Source: Gracilinema caldarium DSM 7334 (lineage in GTDB: Bacteria > Spirochaetota > Spirochaetia > Treponematales > Breznakiellaceae). Taken from it: a stretch of 64,000 bases of DNA. Position numbers and translations under genes: made by a program. The stretch lies in the NCBI RefSeq assembly GCF_000219725.1, contig NC_015732.1, positions 2,672,972-2,736,971 on the forward strand. The letters are read 5' to 3'. Below are positions 3,091-40,312 of the stretch, piece by piece; the stretch's first letter is position 1; every line of letters begins with the position of its first letter. The notes below the pieces were generated by a model that made no database searches, was not told the DNA's origin, and saw nothing but the letters and a program-made list of their open reading frames with translations.

Positions 3091-4911
3091 ATGACACTAA
3101 ACGAACTAAAACACCAAGGCCTGAAAAAATGGGTCGAAGAAGCGGTGGCTTTAATGAAGCCCAAAGCGGTATATGTCTGCGATGGCAGCCAGGAAGAGTA
3201 CGATCGTATGATAGACATATGCGTGAAAGGGGGCCTCGCTACCCCCCTGAACTCTGCTAAACGCCCCGGCTGTTACCTCTTCCGCTCCGATCCATCCGAC
3301 GTAGCCCGGGTAGAAAACCGGACCTATATCGCATCGAAAACACAGGAAGAAGCTGGTCCCACCAACAACTGGATCAATCCGGTCGAACTCAAGAAGACCA
3401 TGACCGAACTGTATACTGGCTGTATGCAGGGGCGGACCATGTACGTCATCCCATTCTCCATGGGCCCGGTTGGTTCTAACATTGCCAAAATTGGTGTAGA
3501 AATCACCGATTCTGAATACGTTGTGGCCAACATGCACATTATGACCCGGGTTGGGAAAAAGGTGCTCGATGTTCTCGGTACCAACGGCGAATATGTGCCC
3601 TGTCTCCACTCGGTCGGTAAACCTCTTGCCGAAGGGGAAAGCGACAACGGCAAGTGGCCCTGTGCTCCACTGGACAAAAAATACATTTCCCACTTCCCCG
3701 AAACCCGGGAAATCTGGTCCTATGGATCCGGTTACGGCGGCAATGCCCTCCTCGGGAAGAAATGCCTTGCCCTCCGTATTGCCTCAGTTATTGCCCGGGA
3801 TGAAGGCTGGCTTGCGGAACACATGCTCATCCTGAAGATTACCAACCCCCAGGGTGTTTCTAAGGTCGTCTGTGCCGCCTTCCCCTCAGCCTGCGGCAAG
3901 ACAAACCTCGCCATGCTGGTACCTACCCTTCCCGGTTGGAAGGTTGAGACCATCGGCGATGATATTGCCTGGATGAAATTTGGTCCCGATGGCCGGCTCT
4001 ATGCCATTAATCCTGAAGCGGGCTTCTTCGGCGTTGCCCCGGGAACTAATATGGATTCCAATCCCAACGCAATGCGGTCTATCGAAAAGAACACCATTTT
4101 CACCAACGTAGCCCTGACCGAGGATAAGGACGTATGGTGGGAACAGATTGGTTACGATGCCCCCGGCAAGCTCATTGACTGGAAGGGCAACGAATGGATT
4201 CAGGACAAGGCTAATAAAGCCCAGGAACCTGCGGCCCATCCCAACAGCCGCTTTACCGCCCCTGCCCGGCAGTGCCCTGCCATTGCTCCCGAATGGGAAG
4301 ATCCCAAAGGTGTTCCGGTAGACGCCATTCTCTTTGGCGGCCGCCGGCCGAGCACCATTCCTCTGGTACACCAGGCAACTGACTGGGTACACGGTGTATT
4401 CATGGGATCTATCGTTGGTTCTGAAATTACCGCCGCGGCCCTGGACCTTAAGGCTGGAACTATCCGCCGGGATCCCTTCGCCATGTTGCCCTTCTGCGGC
4501 TACAACATGGGTGACTATTTCCAGCACTGGATTAACATTGGAAAGAAAACCAGTGCCGACAAACTGCCCAAGATTTTCTTCGTCAACTGGTTCCGCAAGA
4601 CCAAGGATGGCAAGTGGCTCTGGCCCGGTTATGGTGAAAACAGCCGGGTTCTCGCCTGGATCTTCGACCGCTGTGCAGGCACTGGCAAGGCTGTAGAAAC
4701 CCCCATTGGCTATATGCCCACTGTGGACGCCATTGAGCGGCCCGCAGGAGTCAGCGAAGCAGACATGAAGGAACTTCTTGCGGTCGATATCGAAGGCTGG
4801 AAGAAAGAAATTGCGGACATCCGCGAAAACCACTATCCCAAGTTCGGAAACCGGCTTCCCAAGGAGCTTATGAACGAACTAGATGCTATCGAAAAGCGGC
4901 TTGGCAAGTAA
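3091..4911 (+). CDS. pckG: Phosphoenolpyruvate carboxykinase (GTP)
   Basis: A 606-residue protein of the normal length for GTP-type PEP carboxykinase, which interconverts oxaloacetate and PEP with GTP/GDP in the cytosol. Seen in the sequence: the P-loop-like kinase motif PSACGKTN around residues 265-272 with the hyper-reactive Cys at 268, the metal-binding GDDIAWMKF at about 289-297, and the [11 protein letters not shown] and FFVNWFRK segments typical of the GTP family. The ATP-dependent family lacks these. Translation starts at ATG after AAGGAG. The gene has its own promoter and a strong terminator, so it is monocistronic. In anaerobic spirochaetes the enzyme commonly works in the PEP-to-oxaloacetate direction; that is inference here. 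Confidence 0.97.
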
Positions 4912-4921
4912 GGAAAAATAA

Positions 4922-5006
4922 TCAGGCCCTGTAAGGGCCTGACTACTACCAAAAGACTAAAAAGGGCTTTCCAGAACAAACTGGAAAGCCCTTTTTATTT
5001 TTTTTA
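4922..5006 (+). terminator. Tandem hairpins ending pckG
   Basis: A perfect 8-bp hairpin (4922-4942) is followed by a 14-bp stem, AAAGGGCTTTCCAG (4961-4974) pairing with 4981-4994. The second runs straight into a T-rich tract, making it a classic intrinsic terminator. Confidence 0.9.
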
Positions 5007-5045
5007 TTGTACGGTCATGAAAAGATACAAGAACTTTAGAGACCT

Positions 5046-5480
5046 TTAGATCTTTTCCTGGCAGGCAAGCTCGTCCATCCGGCGGAGCCGACGGGAAAGA
5101 TCTCGGGCGAGATTCATAATAATCATAGAAAAGGTACTCACATCCATTTTATAAATATCCCGCAGAGCCCTATTAGAGATGGCAGCGACCCGGGTTGGAA
5201 CAACAGTCTTTATTGTTGCAACTGCGGGCATTACATCCAGAATTTCCATTTCACCAAAGGTTTCACCTTCGCCTAATTCATTTAATTGCTTCCCATTTCG
5301 GATCACGTGGACCCGTCCATCAATAATAAATCGGATTCGATCATTTCTATTCCCTTCGGTAATAATAGGCACTCCTTCAGAATAGGATTCAATAGTGAGT
5401 AAAGGAATAAGCCGTTCGATCTGGTCTGCCATGAGACCGCCAAAGAGGGAATATTTTTGTAAATCGTGTACCGTAATCAT
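5046..5480 (-). CDS. Cyclic-nucleotide-binding domain protein
   Basis: A 144-residue protein that is essentially one CRP-type cyclic-nucleotide-binding domain: segments such as LFGGLMADQIERL, RIRFIIDGRVHVI and GEGETFGEMEIL match the beta-roll and phosphate-binding cassette (GE followed by an acidic residue). No DNA-binding domain follows, so it is probably an allosteric or protein-interaction module. An earlier in-frame start exists, but MITVHDLQKY at 5480 begins exactly at the domain. Its ATG overlaps the stop of the HD gene in an ATGA junction, implying translational coupling. Confidence 0.8.
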   Translation of the reverse strand: MITVHDLQKYSLFGGLMADQIERLIPLLTIESYSEGVPIITEGNRNDRIRFIIDGRVHVIRNGKQLNELGEGETFGEMEILDVMPAVATIKTVVPTRVAAISNRALRDIYKMDVSTFSMIIMNLARDLSRRLRRMDELACQEKI

Positions 5481-6022
5481 GGAAGAACCTTCCTCAGGGC
5501 AATAATGGTCTCTCCTATGAGAGCATCCAGGTCCATACCCAACATGGCAGCTCCCTTTTCGATAACCTGCCGGTTTACCCCGGCAGCAAAGGCCTGGGTC
5601 TTCCATTTTTTCTTAACCGATGAGACTTCCAGGTCCTGTACACTTTTCGATGGGCGCACGAGGGCGCAGGCTTGAATAAAACCGGTAAGCTCATCTACCG
5701 CAAAGAGGGTCTTTTCAAGGGGGCTCAGAGGCTCCACATCGGAACAGATGCCCCAGCCATGGCTTACCACGGCCCGCACATAGTCCTCAGGCCAGCCGGC
5801 CTGTTCCAGGATCTTTTTTGCCATGGTACAGTGCTGGTCCGGATACTTTTGATAGTCAATATCATGAACAAGACCGATAATACCCCACCGTTCAGGGTCT
5901 TCACCAGCTTTTTCTGCAAAGTGGCGCATGGCCGCCTCCACCGCCAGCGCGTGCCGCCAGAGGCCTTCATCATCATTATATTGGCGCCAGAGCTGTTCTG
6001 CATCATCCCGTGTTGGAACCAC
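5477..6022 (-). CDS. HD-domain hydrolase
   Basis: A 181-residue HD-superfamily protein. A metal-binding His lies early (LWRHALAVE), the diagnostic pair is in GLVHDIDYQKYP, a further His is in VVSHGWG, and the closing Asp is in AVDELTGFI. The size and layout match the small HDIG-type phosphohydrolases. Its substrate is unknown, perhaps a nucleotide. It lies 24 bases after ychF in the same direction and overlaps the cyclic-nucleotide-binding gene by 4 bases, so the three form one likely operon. Confidence 0.8.
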   Translation of the reverse strand: MVPTRDDAEQLWRQYNDDEGLWRHALAVEAAMRHFAEKAGEDPERWGIIGLVHDIDYQKYPDQHCTMAKKILEQAGWPEDYVRAVVSHGWGICSDVEPLSPLEKTLFAVDELTGFIQACALVRPSKSVQDLEVSSVKKKWKTQAFAAGVNRQVIEKGAAMLGMDLDALIGETIIALRKVLP

Positions 6023-6046
6023 CAGAATCCCCCTTATAGCCTGAAC

Positions 6047-7156
6047 TTATACGTTGAATTTAAAGAACATCACATCCCCGTCCTGGACCACATATTCCTT
6101 GCCTTCGATGCGGTACTTGCCGGCTTCCTTTATTTTAGCTTCGGAGCCATAGGTAAGGAGGTCCTCGTAAGAATAGACTTCTGCCTTAATAAAGCCCTTT
6201 TCAAAGTCTGTATGGATGACCCCTGCGGCCTGGGGTGCCTTGTCCCCCGCATGGATGGTCCAGGCCCGGCATTCGTCTTCTCCGGCGGTAAAGAAGGTCC
6301 GCAAGCCTAAAAGCCGATAGGCCGCATGGATGAGCGAAGCCAGGCCCGACTCTGCAAGGCCCAATTCTGAAAGAAAGGCCAGCCGTTCTTCTTCACTTTC
6401 CAGATCCGCAAGCTCCGCTTCAAACTTTCCGCAAATAACTACCGCCTCAGAGTTTTCCGCCGCCGCCCGGGCTTTGACCATATCTACATAGCGGTTGCCG
6501 TTACGCATGCCTTCTTCATCAACATTACAGACATAGAGCTGGGGTTTCATGGTAATAAGATGGCTGTCATAGAGGGCGGCCCGTTCATCATCACTTAAGG
6601 GGACCGACCGGGCAGGTTTTCCCTGTTCCAGGGCAGGCTGAACCTTATCCAGAGCCGAAATAAGCAGTTCTGCCTGTTTCTGCTGATCCTTGCCCTGCAC
6701 CTTAAGGGCCCGTACCGCCTTCTCCCGCCGTTTAGCCACCGTATCCAGGTCGGCCAGGGCAAGCTCCACATTGATGGTCTCCATGTCCGATTCGGGATCG
6801 ACCTTATTAGATACATGGATGATGTCTGGATTTTCGAAACAACGAACGACCTGGGCAATGACACCCACTTCCCGGATATGGGACAGGAACTGATTTCCGA
6901 GCCCTTCGCCCTGACTCGCCCCTTTCACAAGACCGGCGATGTCCACAAACTCTACCGAGGCTGGAATAACCCGTTTGGGCTTAAAGATTTCCGCCAGCTT
7001 TTTAAGCCGGTTATCGGGCACATCCACAATACCCACATTAGGGTTAATCGTACAGAAGGGATAATTTGCTGCTTCCGCAGGAGCCCGGGTTAATGCTGAA
7101 AAAATGGTGGACTTACCCACATTGGGAAGCCCCACAATACCACAGTTTAATGCCAT
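6047..7156 (-). CDS. ychF: Redox-regulated ATPase YchF (Obg-family)
   Basis: A 369-residue protein of standard YchF length. It has the G1 loop GLPNVGKST at residues 9-17, a G3 region [17 protein letters not shown], and the C-terminal TGS-like domain with [26 protein letters not shown]. YchF binds ATP in preference to GTP and associates with ribosomes in stress responses. Only GGGAGC separates the -10 element TACAAT from the ATG, so the mRNA is predicted to be leaderless. It is the first gene of a probable ychF/HD/cNMP operon. Confidence 0.97.
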
Positions 7157-7162
7157 GCTCCC

Positions 7163-7191
7163 ATTGTACGGGTAGATACAATGCGGGTCAA
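7163..7191 (-). promoter_or_regulatory. ychF promoter, leaderless layout
   Basis: On the minus strand TTGACC (7186-7191), 17 nt, TACAAT (7163-7168), then only 6 nt to the ATG. Confidence 0.65.
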
Positions 7192-7210
7192 CAGGGGAAG
7201 TATTACTATG

Positions 7211-8065
7211 TTACAGGGATGCAATATCCTCCGCTTGCAGACCGGTAAGGGCGATAATTTGTTCCATAGAAAAGTTTTGAGCCTTCATTCGACGGGCAAT
7301 TTCAAGCTTTGCCTCTTTCTCCCCTTTCTGCATCCCCTGTTGCATTCCCTTATCAAACCCCTTTTTCAGCCCCTCTTCTTCTGCATAGGCTAAAAAAGAA
7401 ATCCTATCCCGTTCTGCCTTTTCCCGTGCGAGGGCTGCTAAAAATCGTCCATCTATACCGCTCATAAAATCCCTAAACCTCCTTACAGCTTCCTGAATTG
7501 CAGGGTCTGTATTAGTAAGAAAAGCATCGATCCCATTATTTCTACCTTCTTCTTTAATAAATTTGCTCCAAAAGGCTGCTAAATTCAAGGGCTCTTCCGG
7601 CACCTTGGGGAGTTCAATGGTATGGATTTGTAAAAAATTCGTATATTTAAGAGAATCTACCGTATACCATGAGGGTTCATCAAAATAATTAAAATCTAAT
7701 ATGTTGATGCAAATAACAGGCCTCAGTTCCTGATACTTTTGCCCCCGCTTTATTTGCCTGGAATACAATCTACTCCAGTAAAACAGGGATCGCTCCATAT
7801 AAAAGCCTTCCCTGTAGGTTTGAATTTCTATATTGATGAGCCTCCCTGTTTCATCCTGGGCGACTAAATCCAGATAGGTGGTTTTATCGCCATAAAAATC
7901 GGGAGTTATCCGGCTTTTTTGAATCTTTAAACTGGTAATCTTTGGGCAACCGGCATACTCAAAAAAGGCGTTCAACATGCTTTGTAAAATAGGAAGGGAC
8001 TCTTCTTCTCCAAACACATATTGGAAAACCAGATCGTTAATAAGGGGTATTACTTGCTCTGCCAT
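7211..8065 (-). CDS. Rpn-family PD-(D/E)XK nuclease / putative transposase
   Basis: A 284-residue protein of the Rpn (recombination-promoting nuclease) / PDDEXK_2 family. The catalytic core is visible as YLDLVAQDETG followed by INIEIQ (Asp, then Glu-x-Gln), after an N-terminal DLVFQYVFG segment. A charged helix rich in KG and QG repeats leads to a short C-terminal tail, FSMEQIIALTGLQAEDI, typical of these proteins. Family members cut DNA and promote RecA-independent recombination in E. coli. The start at 8065 has AGGAGG four bases upstream; an earlier in-frame ATG at 8101 has no such site. Confidence 0.85.
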   Translation of the reverse strand: MAEQVIPLINDLVFQYVFGEEESLPILQSMLNAFFEYAGCPKITSLKIQKSRITPDFYGDKTTYLDLVAQDETGRLINIEIQTYREGFYMERSLFYWSRLYSRQIKRGQKYQELRPVICINILDFNYFDEPSWYTVDSLKYTNFLQIHTIELPKVPEEPLNLAAFWSKFIKEEGRNNGIDAFLTNTDPAIQEAVRRFRDFMSGIDGRFLAALAREKAERDRISFLAYAEEEGLKKGFDKGMQQGMQKGEKEAKLEIARRMKAQNFSMEQIIALTGLQAEDIASL

Positions 8066-8187
8066 AGGGCCTCCTAAAATTAGTACAGCAGTATTTTTCA
8101 TATTGATGTAATGAAAGACACTTATTTTTTCCAGCTTCCTTCTTGTAGCCCATGGGGTGTTGTGGTACCCTGTAGATGGAGGATCCT

Positions 8188-20062: not shown

Positions 20063-20094
20063 TATCCAAAACCTTGATATTTGGAGGATTACAC

Positions 20095-22323
20095 ATGAAA
20101 ATAAAAGAGAAATTTACCATAAGCATTTTGTTTGTTCTGGTTCTCAGTTTTAGTATAACCTTTCTGGTTAACCTGTTGAATTTTTCCAATACTACGAAAA
20201 AAGAAATACATGAAAAGATGCGTCTTACCATCCTTAGCTATATAAAGGACTTTAATAGCTACACCGAAACCCAGTTAGTTACCGCAAGGACCCTTGGGAA
20301 AATCGGCGGGATCATAGGAGAAGCCCTTCAGAACCCAAAAGGTATCAGCACCGAAAAGGCCATCAATCTTTTGTTGTCAACCTTGCAATTCAAACCACTC
20401 GCAGGAGGGGGACTTTTTTATGATAAGGGAGTTATTCCCGGATATGATTTTTTAGGTCTCTATGGCATATACAACGAGGGAAAATTTAAGTTCGATGATA
20501 CATACATCAACTATAATTATACAGTTGAAGACTGGTACACCGCAGCCCTGCCTTTAGAACATGATCGCCATACTCCTTTGCCTCAGGAATACACAATCAC
20601 AAAACCCTATCTGTACCTGTTGCAGGGTCAAACTCTTTCCGATATACCATCAGAAAAACGTACAAGTAGCATTTATATCACTGTAAACTGTCCTATGGTC
20701 GATACGAATAACCGGATTCTGGGTGTTGCAACGGCGGACCTGACCTTGGGTTTTCTGGAAACACTTCTTAAGGATGTAAAAATCACTGAGCATTCTCAGC
20801 TTTTCGTGTTAGACCCCGCAACCAATCGTTATCTGTATTCTCAAAATCATGATGAAATCTTTCGCCTCTACCGCAACCATTCCGATGCGAAAACGGAAAC
20901 TGCAGCGGTTTTGCCTTGGGCAGAAAAACTTAGAAAGGACTTACCTCCAGATACTATTGGCAGCATAGAGAAAATTGATATAAATGGGGATTCCCATACT
21001 ATTTATTATGGATACACCAATTTCGGCTATATTTTTGCCTTTGCCATTCCTGATAAAGAAACCTTCAACAATCTCAATATTGCCATAATCCAATATAGCC
21101 TGGCAATCATCCTGGTATCCATTTTTATTATTCTGGTCCTTATTTTCCTTATCAACTGGATTATTATAAAGCCTATTCAGGAAACCCGAGAGGCTATTAA
21201 AGCCTTAGCCCTGGGGGAAGGGGACCTAACAAAACGACTAACTTTTGTAAGTAATGATGAAATTGGCGAGATGGCGGGATTTATTAATGAATTTCTTTCA
21301 CAGGTCCATGCTATAGTGTCCAACATTAGGTCGATGGTCGATGAAATGCGACTATTGGGAGATGAACTGCAAACAAATGTCACCGAGTCTGCGGCGTCTG
21401 CAAAACAAATATCAGGAAACACAACGCAGGTGAAGGATAAACTTATTGATCAATCCGCTGGTGTTACCGAAACGATGGCGACGGTAGAAGAGATTAATCG
21501 AAATATCCAATCCTTCCTGCAGATGATTGAAACCCAGGCGGCTAACCTGACTCAGGCGTCTAGTGCCATAGAACAAATGGTTGCAAATATAGGATCGGTA
21601 GCTCAAAATATCAGCCGTAATCAGAAAACCCTATCCCAGGTAGTGCAGGACTCAGATCAGGGGAAAGAGCTGGTTAATACGGTTGAATCGGTTATCATTG
21701 AAATTGAAAAAGCCAGCGAAGGTATGATGGAAGCAAACTCTATCATTGCAACCATTGCAAGTCAGACCAATTTGTTGTCTATGAATGCGGCGATTGAAGC
21801 GGCCCATGCAGGGGATGCAGGCAAAGGCTTTGCTGTAGTTGCCGAGGAGATTAGAAAACTTGCTGAAAATGCAAATGAACAGAGTAAAACCATCGGTTCA
21901 GTACTACAAAATATGAAAAACCTTATCGAGAAGGCTGTAAACAGTACTGCAGAAGCGAAACAAAAACTGGATAGTGTATTTAATAGTATCCGAAAAGTCG
22001 GGGACCAGGAGCTGGAAATAAAGCATGCCATGGATGAACAACAGCAGGGGTCCCAGCAAGTTCTGGTAGCAATGAAGGAATTAAACCAGATTACCAGTGA
22101 AATTCGTTCTGGATCCGAAGAAATTCGGATCGGGAGCCAAACCATACACGATGAGATGAGCCACCTCATGCAGGGCACTCGAAACATCGAAGACGCGACC
22201 CAGGAAATTACCCAGGGTGCGCAGGAGATTGCCCAAGCAATGGAGCATATTAATGGCCTTACCACTAAAAACGCCCAGACGATTCGCCAAGTAGAGAACC
22301 TGGTACAGCGGTTTAAGGTGTAA
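20095..22323 (+). CDS. Methyl-accepting chemotaxis protein with periplasmic Cache domain
   Basis: A 742-residue transmembrane chemoreceptor. TM1 lies at about residues 9-29, then a long periplasmic dCache-like sensor (about 40-320). TM2 is near 325-350, followed by a HAMP domain ([22 protein letters not shown]) and a cytoplasmic signalling helix bundle. The hairpin tip [23 protein letters not shown] is nearly canonical. It should signal to CheA/CheW in response to a small ligand, which is unknown. GGAGG lies seven bases before 20095; the in-frame ATG at 20074 precedes that site and is rejected. The gene stands alone between purL and a minus-strand gene. Confidence 0.93.
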
Positions 22324-34150: not shown

Positions 34151-36238
34151 CTATTTATGAACCAGAGTTAATTCTTGCTCAGTTCTGGCTTTTGGTAATT
34201 GGCGAATTTCTTCAATGAGTTTAGAGCTCAGCTCATCCACATGGGAAGCAACAGTGGCTATGGTTTCAGTATAGTGATTAATTTTTTCAAGCCGTTCGAG
34301 AATCTGTTTTCCTCCTGCATGTTGCTCAAAGACAATAGCTTGCACCTGCTGTTGATGTTGGACAAGGTTTTGAATTTGTGAAAACACTGCAATAAAGCTT
34401 TCATGGGTCTTTTCAGATTGAGCACGGGTCATATCGATAAGTTGTTTGATCTCTTTTAGATACCGCGAAATCGAAGTAGCCTGCACTGCAACATGTTCGG
34501 CTAGTTTTTTTATCTCCGTAGCCACCACGGTAAAACCTTTACCAAGAGACCCTGCATGAGCAGCCTCAATGGCAGCATTAATAGCTAAAAGGTTTGTTTG
34601 ATTGGCAATTTCTTCTATTATGGAACTGGCATCGAGAATAGTGACTGATCGATGAGCAATGTTTTCCATTAAATCCGATATATTTGAAATATTACTCCTG
34701 TTTTCTTCGGATGAGGTGAGTAAAACCTGAGAGGTATGAATTGTAGTTGAAACAATTTCATGAATTTTGTTGATGTCTTCCACCATCTCTATAATAGTTC
34801 GTGAAGATTCGTCCATAAAGTCTTTCAGGGCACCACTAACTTCATTCAGTTTATCGATAGGCTCTTCGCTCTTAGAAAGAGTCTGAATGCTACGATTAGA
34901 AAAATCCTCCAGCATCTGTACCAGATTTTCCTTGTACGAGTTATGAAGACGGTGTATTTCCCGTTCCATGTAGTGACGGCAATTTTCTGGTTTGTTAAGG
35001 CCATTAAAAATAGCTACAGCCATCTGTTCACAGCTTTTATATCCACAGGAACTACAATCTAAAATATCTCGTTCCGATTCTTTATAAGTCTTACGGTTAA
35101 TCTCATTAATAAAATTACTATCAGGCTCCCGGATCATCTTTTTAAACATGGAAGACCTATCAACATACTTACGAACATACAAATCCGGTTTCCAGAACTG
35201 TTTGATAGTTTTTAATAGTTTTCGAGAAGATCTATATCTCTGTATTGCACCTCGAGATCGGTCTTCGATTTTCTTTTCAATCTTATCGAGATTCTTACCC
35301 TGATTAAGGGTACCAGGGCCACCGTTACATCCCATTTCACAGCTTAAGCAATCTACTAACTCAAAAATGGGGGCTTCACCAGACTGAATCGATTCTCCAA
35401 GATGCGCAAAGTAATGGTACACTTCGGGGCCTTCAATTTTTCTTGTTTTTGAGGCGATATCAGGTACATGGCGAGCTACGGTCCTCATGAGTCCACCGGG
35501 CGAGGAAAAAAGGACAGCCCGCTCTGCTGGCGGCCCCTTGAATTCAACCGCAGGATACCTGGAAAGATCTATACCATGGGATTCAATGTACGCCTGAAGA
35601 GAACGAAATGTTATATTGTAGTCCCCAAGGCCTACGGCATCAAATTCTCGTCGTTTTGCATAACAGGGAGAAATAGCCGCAAGTTTATAGTTCCGATAGG
35701 CAGGATAAAATTCTCGAATCATTTTAAAAGTATGCACCATGGGACTATCAGCAGGCGCTAAGAGGGGTATAAGCTCAGGCCGATAGGTTTCTATGTAAGA
35801 AACAATAGCAGGACAGGGCTGAGCAATGATACATTCCGGATCTTGGGTTTTCTTATACTGAAGATAGGAATAGACAGTCAGTTCCGCCCCAAAACTTACA
35901 TCAAAAATCGCTTCTACCCCAAGGGATTGTAAAAAACCAGCTAGTTGTTGGTACCGGCCTTCAAAACCACTGGCCGCTGCGGGGGCCATGATAGCTACTA
36001 TCTTTTCCCCCCGCAAAAGGGCCTCCTGAAAAGTATCCCAATCATCAATTCCGATCCTTGCTCCATGGGTGCAGGCACTGATACAAGCACCACATCCAAG
36101 ACAAAGATCACTGTTAATTTTTACATAAGATCCCGACCCATCGTTACACATCTTTGCTGGGCAGACACTGATACAACGATGGCAATTAACACATTTTTCT
36201 TCAAGCACTTTTATCACTGGTCGTTGTTGTAAAGCCAT
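34151..36238 (-). CDS. [FeFe]-hydrogenase-like sensor fused to a chemoreceptor signalling domain
   Basis: A 695-residue soluble protein. Residues 16-26 hold a CxxCxxCxxxC ferredoxin motif, with a second, [11 protein letters not shown], soon after. An [FeFe]-hydrogenase H-domain follows with L1 [13 protein letters not shown]2 [12 protein letters not shown] and L3 [13 protein letters not shown], so the cluster cysteines are present. The first Cys of the usual TSCCP is absent, as in sensory rather than catalytic hydrogenases. [10 protein letters not shown] Fe-S domain comes next. The last 240 residues form a methyl-accepting signalling bundle with tip [20 protein letters not shown]. There is no membrane segment. 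It probably reports H2 or redox state to CheA. The start follows AAGGGG; a start at 36286 would lie in the -10 box. Confidence 0.92.
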
Positions 36239-36281
36239 ACACACCCCTTTTATTCTGAATCGGTTTAGCTTTATCAGCAAT

Positions 36282-36310
36282 AGCATACCACTAATTAAGA
36301 AATCGGTGAA
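36282..36310 (-). promoter_or_regulatory. Promoter of the hydrogenase-chemoreceptor gene
   Basis: TTCACC (36305-36310), a 17-nt spacer and TATGCT (36282-36287) on the minus strand, with a leader of about 37 nt. Confidence 0.5.
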
Positions 36311-36342: not shown

Positions 36343-36969
36343 ATGGCTGCATTCTTTTTGTTACGTATTGGCAAACTGATTGATAGAAAAGACTGGATTG
36401 AAGATGCCCTTCATCAATATTATTGGCATGAAGAATTATTGCAGGATCAAAAAACCAATTTATTTTACCACGGGTGGGATAATCTTAATAAAGATCATAT
36501 GTCTGGAATATTCTGGGCACGGGGAAATGCCTGGGCTGCATTAACTATGGCAGAGGCCCTTAAGCTCATTGATTATACTTATCCAATGTTTATGCAACTC
36601 GATGGAGCCCTGCGTGATCAGTTAAGTGCCCTGGTTCGTTTACAAACAGACAATGGACTCTGGCATACAGTACTTACGGATCCAACGTCCTATGAAGAAA
36701 TCTCTGCCTCTGCGGGTATTGGCTCGGCACTTCTGCGTTATGGACACCCCCTTCATAAATCACTTGCGGAAAAGGCGTTACAAGGTGTTCTTGCGCATAT
36801 TGACGAAGATGGGTCTGTACAAGATGTATCAGCAGGAACAGCTGTAATGGCTTCGGCAGAAGATTATAAACGGGTACCTAAAAAAAGAGTCCAGGGGTGG
36901 GGGCAAGGACTCGCCCTTGTATTCTTATCATACGCACTCATGAATATAAGTGAAGAACGTGAATTGTAG
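36343..36969 (+). pseudogene. Remnant of a GH105 unsaturated rhamnogalacturonyl/glucuronyl hydrolase
   Basis: The 208-residue frame matches only the C-terminal part of glycoside hydrolase family 105 (YteR/YesR-like). FYHGWDN with the catalytic-region Asp, IFWARGNAWAALTMAEAL, RLQTDNGLWHTVLTDP and EISASAGIGSALLRYG are all present. Full enzymes are about 350-380 residues; the first 150 or so are missing, and an in-frame TAA lies at 36331, just upstream. No SD is seen. A near-palindrome TTAAAGCGCTAAT (36330-36342) at the break resembles LacI-family operators. It is most likely a deletion relic and may not be expressed. Confidence 0.75.
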
Positions 36970-37046: not shown

Positions 37047-37817
37047 TTACTGTTCTATCTTCTTTAATTCTTCTTTGTCCTGTTTTAAAACTGTTGTAAA
37101 GAAATCGCTTTTAGAAGGAAGCGTAAGCTGCAACCCATAGGTATAATCGATTTCTATAGTGGCCTTCGACATATCAATTTCAAGAAGGTGACCTCCGAAT
37201 GAAAGATCCTTTGAAAGGAAGTGTAAATGAAACCCAGCCATATTCACACCCGCCATATAATCGGGTAACCATACTCCTATGAGAGTACCTTCGATATTAT
37301 TTGCTTCAAAGGTTGGTTGATTTTTCGTTACCTCTACCAACCGTGGATAAGGTTTTTGTTGTTTTGGAACACTACGGGTTTTGACATACGATACAGGGCC
37401 AGTTATTTTAATAAGATATGGAATATTTTTTGTTGGGAGCATTGACATTATCTTATCGTATAATGATGAAAGATTAGGAATTCGTTCATTAACTTGAAGC
37501 CTTTGATCTGTATCAAAAAAACTGACCGCTGTAAAAGGGGTTGTTACCGTCTTTGCTACTCGATACACCTTTCCATCAGCCTTTACCTGATAACATACCC
37601 CATTTAACAGAATCATCTCTCCATCAAGGCCATCAAAAGTCCCTATTCCAGTATCCCCATATTTTAAAAGGTTCTCAATCGTTTCAACCCCATCGTAAAC
37701 GCCTTCTTGAAGTGCTCCTAAAGTAGAAATCTGGTAAATCACATCCCCTTTGTTTTGAGCAAAAAGGATTCCTCCAACCAACAAAACAATCAAAATACAA
37801 ACGATATTTCGTCTCAT
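37047..37817 (-). CDS. budA: Exported alpha-acetolactate decarboxylase
   Basis: A 256-residue protein with a signal peptide (MRRNIVCILIVLLVGGILFAQ) and a mature acetolactate decarboxylase. The ISTLGALQEGVYDG start, TGIGTFDGLDGEMILLNG, and the zinc motif GFHLHFLSKDLSFGGHLLE give the three metal-binding His. The enzyme turns acetolactate into acetoin. Most homologues are cytoplasmic, but exported forms are known in Gram-positive bacteria. GGAGG lies five bases before 37817; the longer ORF to 38000 crosses the divergent promoter and is rejected. It is divergent from the Cache/chemoreceptor pair. Confidence 0.93.
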   Translation of the reverse strand: MRRNIVCILIVLLVGGILFAQNKGDVIYQISTLGALQEGVYDGVETIENLLKYGDTGIGTFDGLDGEMILLNGVCYQVKADGKVYRVAKTVTTPFTAVSFFDTDQRLQVNERIPNLSSLYDKIMSMLPTKNIPYLIKITGPVSYVKTRSVPKQQKPYPRLVEVTKNQPTFEANNIEGTLIGVWLPDYMAGVNMAGFHLHFLSKDLSFGGHLLEIDMSKATIEIDYTYGLQLTLPSKSDFFTTVLKQDKEELKKIEQ

Positions 37818-37876
37818 ATAAACCTCCAACACTATAATACGCCAAATTACAAAATACACAATTATTTTTTTTAAAA

Positions 37877-37906
37877 TTGACAGCTCTTTTATAATGCTTA
37901 TATAAT
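37877..37906 (+). promoter_or_regulatory. Strong promoter of the Cache-protein/chemoreceptor operon
   Basis: Consensus TTGACA (37877-37882), an 18-nt spacer and TATAAT (37901-37906), followed by AAGGAGG before ATG 37942. Confidence 0.8.
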
Positions 37907-37941
37907 CTGAAATATAAACATATCCACAAGGAGGTAAGCAC

Positions 37942-38451
37942 ATGAAGCGTATCATTATGAGTATCCTTATTAGTATAAGCATGGTAATATTGTTAGACAA
38001 TGTTATTGCTCAGACAAAAAGCAAAATTGATCCTGAGAAAGAAAAAAAAGTAATTAACCTCGTTAACAGTGGTATTACCTTTATTCAAAAAAATGGTATT
38101 GATAAGGCAGTAAAGGCTTTTCAAGATACTAAGGGAGGGTTTATTGATGGAGAATTTTATATTTTCCTTTATGACCTTGAGGGAAATGCTCTTGTGGTGG
38201 GAAGCAATACAAGTCTTATCGGTAAAAATCTCATGAACATATCCAGTACCGATCGAAATGGTAATAAGGTATACCAGGTGAAGGAATTAATTAATATTGC
38301 CAAAACAAAAGGGGAAGGATGGTTCGAATGGGCATGGCAGAACCCAGAAACAAAAAAATTTGGACCGAAACGGGGTTACGCAAAACGAATCGATGTTGAG
38401 GGCAAATCATATATGATAGGTTCAGGTTATTATGTAGGTGATGAAGATTAG
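37942..38451 (+). CDS. Secreted single-Cache sensor protein
   Basis: A 169-residue protein with a signal peptide (about 23 residues, ending in IAQ) and one small Cache domain. Its segments are EKKVINLVNSGITFIQKNG, GGFIDGEFYIFLYDLEGNALV, LIGKNLMN and GWFEWAWQNPETKK, ending in AKRIDVEGKSYMIGSGYYV. This pattern is the extracellular sCache_2 fold that binds small organic acids in chemoreceptors and kinases. Here it is free in the periplasm, with no membrane or output domain. The neighbouring chemoreceptor, 64 bases downstream, lacks a Cache domain, suggesting the two work as a pair (inference). Confidence 0.82.
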   Translation: MKRIIMSILISISMVILLDNVIAQTKSKIDPEKEKKVINLVNSGITFIQKNGIDKAVKAFQDTKGGFIDGEFYIFLYDLEGNALVVGSNTSLIGKNLMNISSTDRNGNKVYQVKELINIAKTKGEGWFEWAWQNPETKKFGPKRGYAKRIDVEGKSYMIGSGYYVGDED

Positions 38452-38515: not shown

Positions 38516-40312
38516 ATGAAATTTTCATTCAACAATAGGACCTTATTTCAAAAGCTCCTATGTATTCCAGTTTTAATAGTTGTTGTATTTTCAATAATTA
38601 CAGGTTTTTTCTTTTTCAATCAACGTCAGATTCAATTAACAATGAAATATTTTAATAATTCATTAAACTACTACGAGAAAAGTCTTGAATTTACCACATT
38701 GCTTACCAGTAGTTTTGAGCGCATGCTGTTAGCAGCTCAGTATTACACCTCGGGAATACATTCAGAACAAAAAACAATTCAGGAAATAGATGCTATTAAA
38801 AAGAGTCTTAAAGATTTACAAAATACTTTTGTAATTTTTAAAGATATTTTAAGTGATGAGCTGTATCAAAAAACTCAACATGCTATTACAGTATATCTTG
38901 AGTTTTCACAATACTACCTGGATTCTATTCTTATTGAAGCATCAGTTGTTGCAGGTTACCTACCATCACTCCATGAAAGTTTTGTTGTCTTAGAAGATAT
39001 TATCACTGAAAGCAATGATCGAATCGAAGAAGATTTTAATAAAACTAAGGTTGATTTAACAAATTTGCTTACAACCTTTGCAACATTTCTCATTTTTATA
39101 ATGTTACTTAGTGCTGTAATCTTTTTTAGTCTTTCTTTTTCTATTTCTAACGCAATAGTAAAACGGATGATACAAATTCTCACTTTTATGAAGGATCTGT
39201 CAGCGGGAAACCTTACTAGTGATATTCAAGACCCCTACAAAGACGAAATTGGGAATATTATAAGACTTTGTCATGACGTACGTTCGTACTTGACTACAAT
39301 GGTTAAAAATATAGAACAGGTTATTATAAGTAATAGAAATGTTGTTGAACAATTATCACATCAATCTTCTGAATTTACCTCTGCTATTGAAGAAATGAGA
39401 AGCCAGACAGATATTATGAACAAGAACACAGGGCTTCTCCATGAAGAAATAGATTCTGCAAGCAAAGCAACAGAAGAAATAAAAAAAGAAATTGATGATA
39501 TTGTTAAAACTATTAAGCAACAATTCAGCCTTAATCAGCAAGTGACCGATTTTATTTCACTTTTTATTGATGATATATATGCCATTTCACAACTTACAAA
39601 TGAAAAAATACATATCACTCGTGAACTCATTGCTAAAACAACAACGGCTGAAGAAGTGGTAAACGACTACCATATATTAATGGATGAAATGAAAAAATCG
39701 ACCGAAGCCATATCAGAGATGATTAGCATTATTAATAATGTAGCAGAACAGACGAATCTGTTAGCACTTAACGCTGCAATCGAAGCAGCCCATGCAGGAG
39801 AAGCAGGAAAAGGATTTGCAGTTGTAGCCGATGAAATAAAAAAACTTTCCGAACTTACCAAAGAACGGGTAGATACTGCAGGGATGTCTTTACGGGATTT
39901 AATTGAAAAAATTCACCGTGGGTCTGATTATAGCACTGATACCCAACATATCATTGGGGAAATCTTAAATGGAATAAAGACAGTTGCAGCGAGTGTGGAA
40001 GAAATAGGAACTGTTATGAATACAACAAATGAAAAGAATATACAAATAAAAGAAATGGTTACTCAACTCAAAGAAATTACAAGTAATATAAACAATGCAA
40101 GTAAAACTATTGATGCTCGTACAAACCTCATTAATATTTCAATAGAGAAGGTACGGAACCTTTCGTTGGAGCATAAAAGCGGTATTGGAGAAATTACAAT
40201 TGGCATACAACAAATATTTGAGCTTACTCCTACTCTCACCGCTTTGAGTAAAACTAATCAAGATAACAATTTGATTCTTGAAAAAGAAATAAAGGAATTC
40301 ACAATACAGTGA
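38516..40312 (+). CDS. Methyl-accepting chemotaxis protein, four-helix-bundle sensor type
   Basis: A 598-residue chemoreceptor. TM1 lies at about residues 15-36, and a helical periplasmic region of about 150 residues resembles the 4HB_MCP sensor rather than Cache. TM2 is near 190-212, then HAMP ([17 protein letters not shown]) and the signalling bundle with the tip [28 protein letters not shown]. It is AT-rich. It shares a transcript with the secreted Cache protein upstream, which may present ligand to it as periplasmic binding proteins do to Tar and Tsr. The ribosome-binding site is weak (GTGAG). Confidence 0.92.

Follow-up and report, generated by a model that had tools for sequence, protein, structure and literature searches.

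A candidate soluble chemoreceptor with an [FeFe]-hydrogenase sensor module in the spirochaete Gracilinema caldarium, and its relatives in genomes without HydG

Known sensory hydrogenases and soluble chemoreceptors

Hydrogen sensor proteins were reportedly described in termite-gut treponemes by Ballor, Paulsen and Leadbetter in 2012, and two of the genomes considered here (G209 and G310, which we take to be T. primitia ZAS-2 and T. azotonutricium ZAS-9) carry members of the protein clade described below. In HydDB, [FeFe] group C2, 'Chemotactic (putative)', comprises hydrogenases with a possible role in sensing H2 and in regulation through methyl-accepting chemotaxis proteins (MCPs) (PMC5037454). 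The fusion protein of Gracilinema caldarium resembles this group in uniting an H-domain and an MCP in one chain, but differs in belonging to a clade that also has kinase and GGDEF/EAL outputs, so that MCP linkage is not clade-wide. Groups C and D, both putatively sensory, are marked by loss of the proton path and by a C-terminal four-Cys motif (PMC8163306). TamHydS, of group D (M2e), combines two N-terminal [4Fe-4S] clusters, an H-domain without C299 and a Cx2Cx4Cx16C domain, with Ser and Leu in place of M353 and M497 and no PAS domain, all as in the fusion protein; it is, however, a standalone protein with no fused output (PMC8163306, PMC13104023), and group D-like proteins fall elsewhere in our tree. 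TmHydS, of group C (M2f), has the same Fe-S layout, the C-terminal four-Cys motif and the loss of C299, but carries a PAS domain where the fusion has its MCP, and Gly and Ser at M353 and M497. Cytosolic MCPs, for their part, share with the fusion a coiled-coil hairpin, a canonical tip and the lack of a transmembrane segment; the fusion differs from them in its sensor, an [FeFe]-hydrogenase, and in having no HAMP domain and no strict methylation motif.

A literature search on H2 taxis returned nothing on hydrogenase receptors and no biochemical or behavioural test of such a fusion. As HydDB C2 and Ballor et al. came before it, the candidate receptor pointed out in an earlier note on this DNA is not of a novel class: the receptor type is known from sequence prediction, and the fusion is a further, well-placed member.

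Architecture of the fusion protein

The gene lies in a stretch of 64,000 nucleotides analysed here as a whole (the window), in an open reading frame at 34151..36286 on the minus strand that stays open for 711 codons counting from its first ATG. Translation probably begins at the ATG at 36238 (695 residues), which is preceded by AAAAGGGG, a better ribosome site than that of the ATG at 36286. From N- to C-terminus the chain consists of two ferredoxin-type [4Fe-4S] motifs, the H-domain, a Cx2Cx4Cx16C Fe-S motif and an MCP signalling domain, placed as follows (695-residue numbering):

34151..36238, minus strand: FeFe-hydrogenase/MCP fusion gene, 695 aa and stop (711 aa with the ATG at 36286)
36056..36208, minus strand: two four-Cys ferredoxin-type [4Fe-4S] motifs, residues 11-61, Pfam Fer4
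35315..36004, minus strand: H-domain, Fe_hyd_lg_C, residues 79-308, Pfam 4e-31
35810..35824, minus strand: L1 motif AQPCP, residues 139-143; ligand Cys142; C299 position is Pro141
35654..35671, minus strand: L2 motif SPCYAK, residues 190-195; ligand Cys192; Lys195 is the K358 equivalent; M353 position is Ser190
35327..35353, minus strand: L3 motif DCLSCEMGC, residues 296-304; ligands Cys300 and Cys304; M497 position is Leu298
34979..35056, minus strand: Cx2Cx4Cx16C C-terminal Fe-S motif, residues 395-420, Pfam FeS PF04060
34583..34963, minus strand: N-terminal arm of the predicted receptor coiled coil, leading from the Fe-S motif to the tip over about 127 residues (18 heptads)
34550..34609, minus strand: predicted CheA/CheW-contacting hairpin tip, residues 544-563, MCPsignal 9e-25

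In the 711-residue numbering, the Pfam matches are Fer4 at 55-76 (E=1e-7), Fe_hyd_lg_C at 95-324 (E=4e-31), FeS PF04060 at 409-437 (E=2e-6) and MCPsignal at 526-679 (E=9e-25), E-values that place all four far beyond chance. The ferredoxin cysteines are residues 16, 19, 22, 26 and 46, 49, 52, 56 of the 695-residue form, and those of the C-terminal motif, CSSCGYKSC...C, are 395, 398, 403 and 420; the H-domain can be aligned to [FeFe]-hydrogenases in the PDB (best E 1e-19). A frameshifted or chimeric reading frame was ruled out, since orthologues have the same full architecture and dN/dS is low.

At the receptor end, the tip AAIEAAHAG is identical to that of most other MCPs in the same genome; these carry the same His, so that the R to H change in EAAHAG is not a sign of a degenerate tip. 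Kyte-Doolittle hydropathy along the protein reaches a 19-residue maximum of 1.21, with no segment at transmembrane level, and with its signalling tip and a genome that encodes CheA and CheW the protein has the attributes of a cytosolic chemoreceptor. A scan for CheR/CheB sites gave only a degenerate match to the methylation motif, at residue 634, and the arms are shorter than in most other receptors of the genome; both make adaptation and membership of the receptor array uncertain. The arm is presumed helical from the MCP fold; an AlphaFold2 model built from three sequences was uninformative (pLDDT 37).

Active site and its ligands

The architecture given in the earlier note (ferredoxin motifs, H-cluster domain, four-Cys Fe-S domain and MCP tip in 695 residues) agrees with Pfam and the motifs, as does its claim that L1 lacks the proton-transfer cysteine; the loss of cluster ligands that it had raised is not seen, as Cys142, 192, 300 and 304 all stand in place on alignment. 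Lys358 is likewise retained, a residue that in group A enzymes contacts a cyanide of [2Fe], while C299 is replaced by Pro, M353 by Ser and M497 by Leu. The proton path of group A (C299, E279 and E282) is thus absent: both glutamates are gone here and lost across the clade, and C299 is replaced in nearly all members. Rapid turnover is improbable for such a site, which is what one would expect of a sensor. The 16 cysteines of the Fe-S and H-clusters (4 of the H-cluster, 8 ferredoxin, 4 C-terminal) are nearly invariant across about 103 relatives.

What such a sensor would read is a separate question. Essentially invariant ferredoxin ligands also suit redox (energy) taxis, by which the ferredoxin-type clusters would monitor the pool of reduced ferredoxin, with the H-domain relaying electrons or acting as a [4Fe-4S] switch and with H2 no longer the physiological ligand; we give this a minority share of our belief, and return to it with the maturases. 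Much less probable, in our estimation, is a sensor of inhibitory gases, with O2 or CO at the H-cluster giving a repellent signal: it would suit an obligate anaerobe such as the host and a module akin to TamHydS, which reacts rapidly with O2 to give a stable state (PMC8163306), but it explains the retained electron-transfer clusters less well than the H2/redox sensor that we favour.

Relatives and exchange of outputs

Among 393 Spirochaetota genomes, 82 are carriers (a match at E of 1e-100 or better), most of them with the whole hydrogenase and MCP architecture at 40-75% identity. The full fusion recurs across many Spirochaetota families, and members also occur in Bacillota; a genome-contig search with the single fusion protein as query gave only distant matches. 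In a tree of 85 modules (IQ-TREE, LG+C20) the window protein falls within a clade of 67 (support 100/100, stem 0.93), separate from groups A and B, from the PAS/kinase-linked group C (M2f) proteins and from the group D-like proteins L012, L092_2 and L094_1, which stand for group D in a set from which TamHydS itself is absent. The window protein has the C-terminal four-Cys signature common to groups C and D, but in this tree its module belongs to a clade of its own, neither with group C nor with the group D-like proteins.

Outputs within the clade comprise MCP (43), histidine kinase (10), CheA-like (8), GGDEF/EAL or GGDEF-like (2) and unclassified (4), most being assigned by similarity to Pfam-checked exemplars rather than by Pfam itself, and counting on well-supported branches shows that the MCP output was gained or lost at least 7 times. 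The same module on histidine kinase, CheA-like and GGDEF/EAL outputs fits a sensor role, and the simplest reading of this variety is that the module would be a swappable sensor. The arm from Fe-S domain to tip is about 126 residues long in most Treponematales and 112, 105, about 84 or 154 in others, differences that suggest, as an impression, an unbroken coiled coil whose length has changed mostly in heptad steps.

Individual members show further variation. L044 and L045 (in G335 and G341) are FeFe modules fused to parts of a CheA-like kinase (Hpt-like region and HATPase), and retain AQCCP, that is, the proton-transfer Cys that MCP members lost; L046 and L047 have Ser/Thr at this position. L050 (G074, 268-2838) joins the module to GGDEF-EAL, tying the same sensor to cyclic di-GMP. 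L059 (G375:C4, locus coordinates 3951-8097) holds two tandem FeFe-MCP genes; they have 653 and 728 codons, and the tip of the first is divergent (FNAELEAASSG).

The closest comparison for the window protein is its orthologue in G262, at 75% identity (dN 0.19, dS 2.8), with H-domain and tip both about 81% identical. With dS near saturation, dN/dS is about 0.07, and the fusion gene is under strong purifying selection.

Host genome and neighbourhood

The host, Treponema (Spirochaeta) caldaria H1, is motile by periplasmic flagella and obligately anaerobic (PMC3739177), and its genome is complete in a single contig of 3,239,340 bp. HydE, HydF and HydG, whose presence the earlier note had made a check on its proposal, lie in one cluster at 2065-2070 kb, each above the curated cut-off. 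The genome encodes three other [FeFe] proteins, at 246, 250 and 3131 kb: a group A enzyme of the NADH type, a group B-like enzyme and L003 (580 aa), which is group C-like and of PAS length. It also has a full chemotaxis system: about 19 MCPs score above cut-off, CheA is encoded at three loci, and CheW, CheB and a CheW-CheR fusion are present. Pfam confirms the other chemoreceptors that the earlier note saw in the window, the first two genes listed here; the third is a neighbour of the fusion gene:

20074-22323: dCache-HAMP-MCP chemoreceptor (Pfam)
38516-40312: MCPsignal chemoreceptor (Pfam)
37047..38000, minus strand: alpha-acetolactate decarboxylase (Pfam 7e-81), the next upstream gene on the same strand as the fusion

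Three CheA loci, and relatives with kinase or GGDEF/EAL outputs, would allow the tip to feed another CheA pathway that controls gene expression or some other process instead of taxis. We consider this improbable for a tip that matches the genome's main MCP set, and keep to a chemoreceptor acting on motility as the preferred reading.

The fusion gene stands alone, with a GNAT gene convergent downstream and a truncated GH88 gene divergent upstream; an operon with hydrogenase genes was ruled out, none being adjacent. An 83% identical acetolactate decarboxylase gene lies upstream of the fusion in G262, and it is through this synteny, not as a demonstrated part of the receptor system, that the decarboxylase is linked to the receptor. 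The GH88 gene (36343-36969, plus strand) matches profile positions 135-349 only, its N-terminal part missing, and sits between the FeFe-MCP and acetolactate decarboxylase genes, which adjoin each other in G262; it has the look of what is left after a gene insertion or rearrangement. A short predicted Cache-domain protein (37942-38451, plus strand), encoded directly upstream of the MCP at 38516-40312, is possibly a separate sensor partner of that receptor, and a 75% identical gene is found near the FeFe-MCP in G262.

Carriers without HydG

HydG is above cut-off in 127 of the 393 Spirochaetota genomes and any [FeFe] domain in 256. It is enriched in carriers (50/82, against 77/311 other genomes), the odds ratio being 4.7 across the whole set and about 2 among genomes with any [FeFe] domain; the Fisher p-values ignore phylogeny, and the lineages are not independent. 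The remaining 32 carriers lack HydG, and 31 of these also lack HydF; all 32 have [FeFe] domains, and they include G153, G157, G191, G194, G231, G272, G286, G063, G342 and G320. A search artefact was ruled out: HydF is present in 13/13 HydG-positive controls and 1/32 HydG-negative carriers, and tblastn with host HydE, HydF and HydG against 2.0 Mb (73%) of the G157 chromosome found only a GTPase-domain match, the absence of HydEFG from the other 27% resting on the HMM search. The portion examined by tblastn, in which one 5-kb stretch was masked beside an rRNA-like antisense ORF, contains this receptor and a group B hydrogenase; the latter (L195, 103218-104657) is group B-like, with TSCCS at L1 where the group B protein of the window genome has TSCCP.

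Receptors of the HydG-less carriers keep their cluster ligands and are under purifying selection. In full-length pairs with unsaturated dS, both species being HydG-less, dN/dS lies at 0.05-0.17 (0.05 for G272/G231, 0.07 for G153/G157, 0.14 for G342/G320), rising to about 0.2 in one pair. Degenerate copies were found only in HydG-less genomes, decayed in G387 and G350 and split by a frameshift in G086. With HydF and HydG both missing from 31 carriers, some members cannot obtain the [2Fe] cluster by the known route, and the reading of H2 is not simply transferable to every member.

It is here that redox taxis finds its best arguments, in the selection maintained on receptors without HydF and HydG, and in G157, presumably T. 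succinifaciens, which retains the gene. That species forms formate by pyruvate-formate lyase, unlike H2-forming spirochaetes (PMC3156407). Against it stand the retention of Lys358 in 38/38 members from HydG-less genomes and the enrichment of the clade in genomes with HydG, and for the window protein we regard redox taxis without H2 as rather unlikely, preferring the H2/redox receptor. For the family, we suggest only tentatively that the H-domain receptor might work without canonical maturation in many species, either through some HydEFG-independent route of assembly in bacteria or as a [4Fe-4S] redox sensor driving taxis; assembly independent of HydEFG is implied for Giardia-type eukaryotes, which have no maturases (PMC11437800).

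Proposed mechanism and significance

The hydrogenase module, its cluster ligands and the receptor hairpin can all be read from the sequence, and the genome also encodes the maturases and chemotaxis proteins. On these grounds we lean towards a soluble, cytosolic H2/redox chemoreceptor with the [FeFe]-hydrogenase module as its sensor, homology being what points to H2 as the ligand. HydEFG would load the [2Fe] subcluster; H2, or ferredoxin electrons arriving through the two N-terminal clusters, would alter the state of the H-cluster; this change would travel, as a shift in conformation, across the Cx2Cx4Cx16C domain to a helix that runs on into the coiled coil of the receptor, whose tip would then modulate CheA and hence reversal of the periplasmic flagella. 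TamHydS retains H2 chemistry, and H2 changes its secondary structure while the C-terminal cluster is not reduced (PMC13104023), which favours mechanical coupling to the coil over transfer of electrons to it. A plausible use would be positioning in H2 gradients arising from the organism's own output or that of H2-producing partners.

The host thus probably steers by hydrogen or by the redox state of its cell. Apparently nobody has shown a bacterium steering by H2 with a hydrogenase as its receptor, though sequence-based proposals of the fusion are years old, and in a motile, non-pathogenic host that is available in pure culture and possesses the maturases the idea is directly testable. Carriers without HydF and HydG, together with the comparison of outputs, pose a sharper question still: whether the sensor needs an H-cluster at all.
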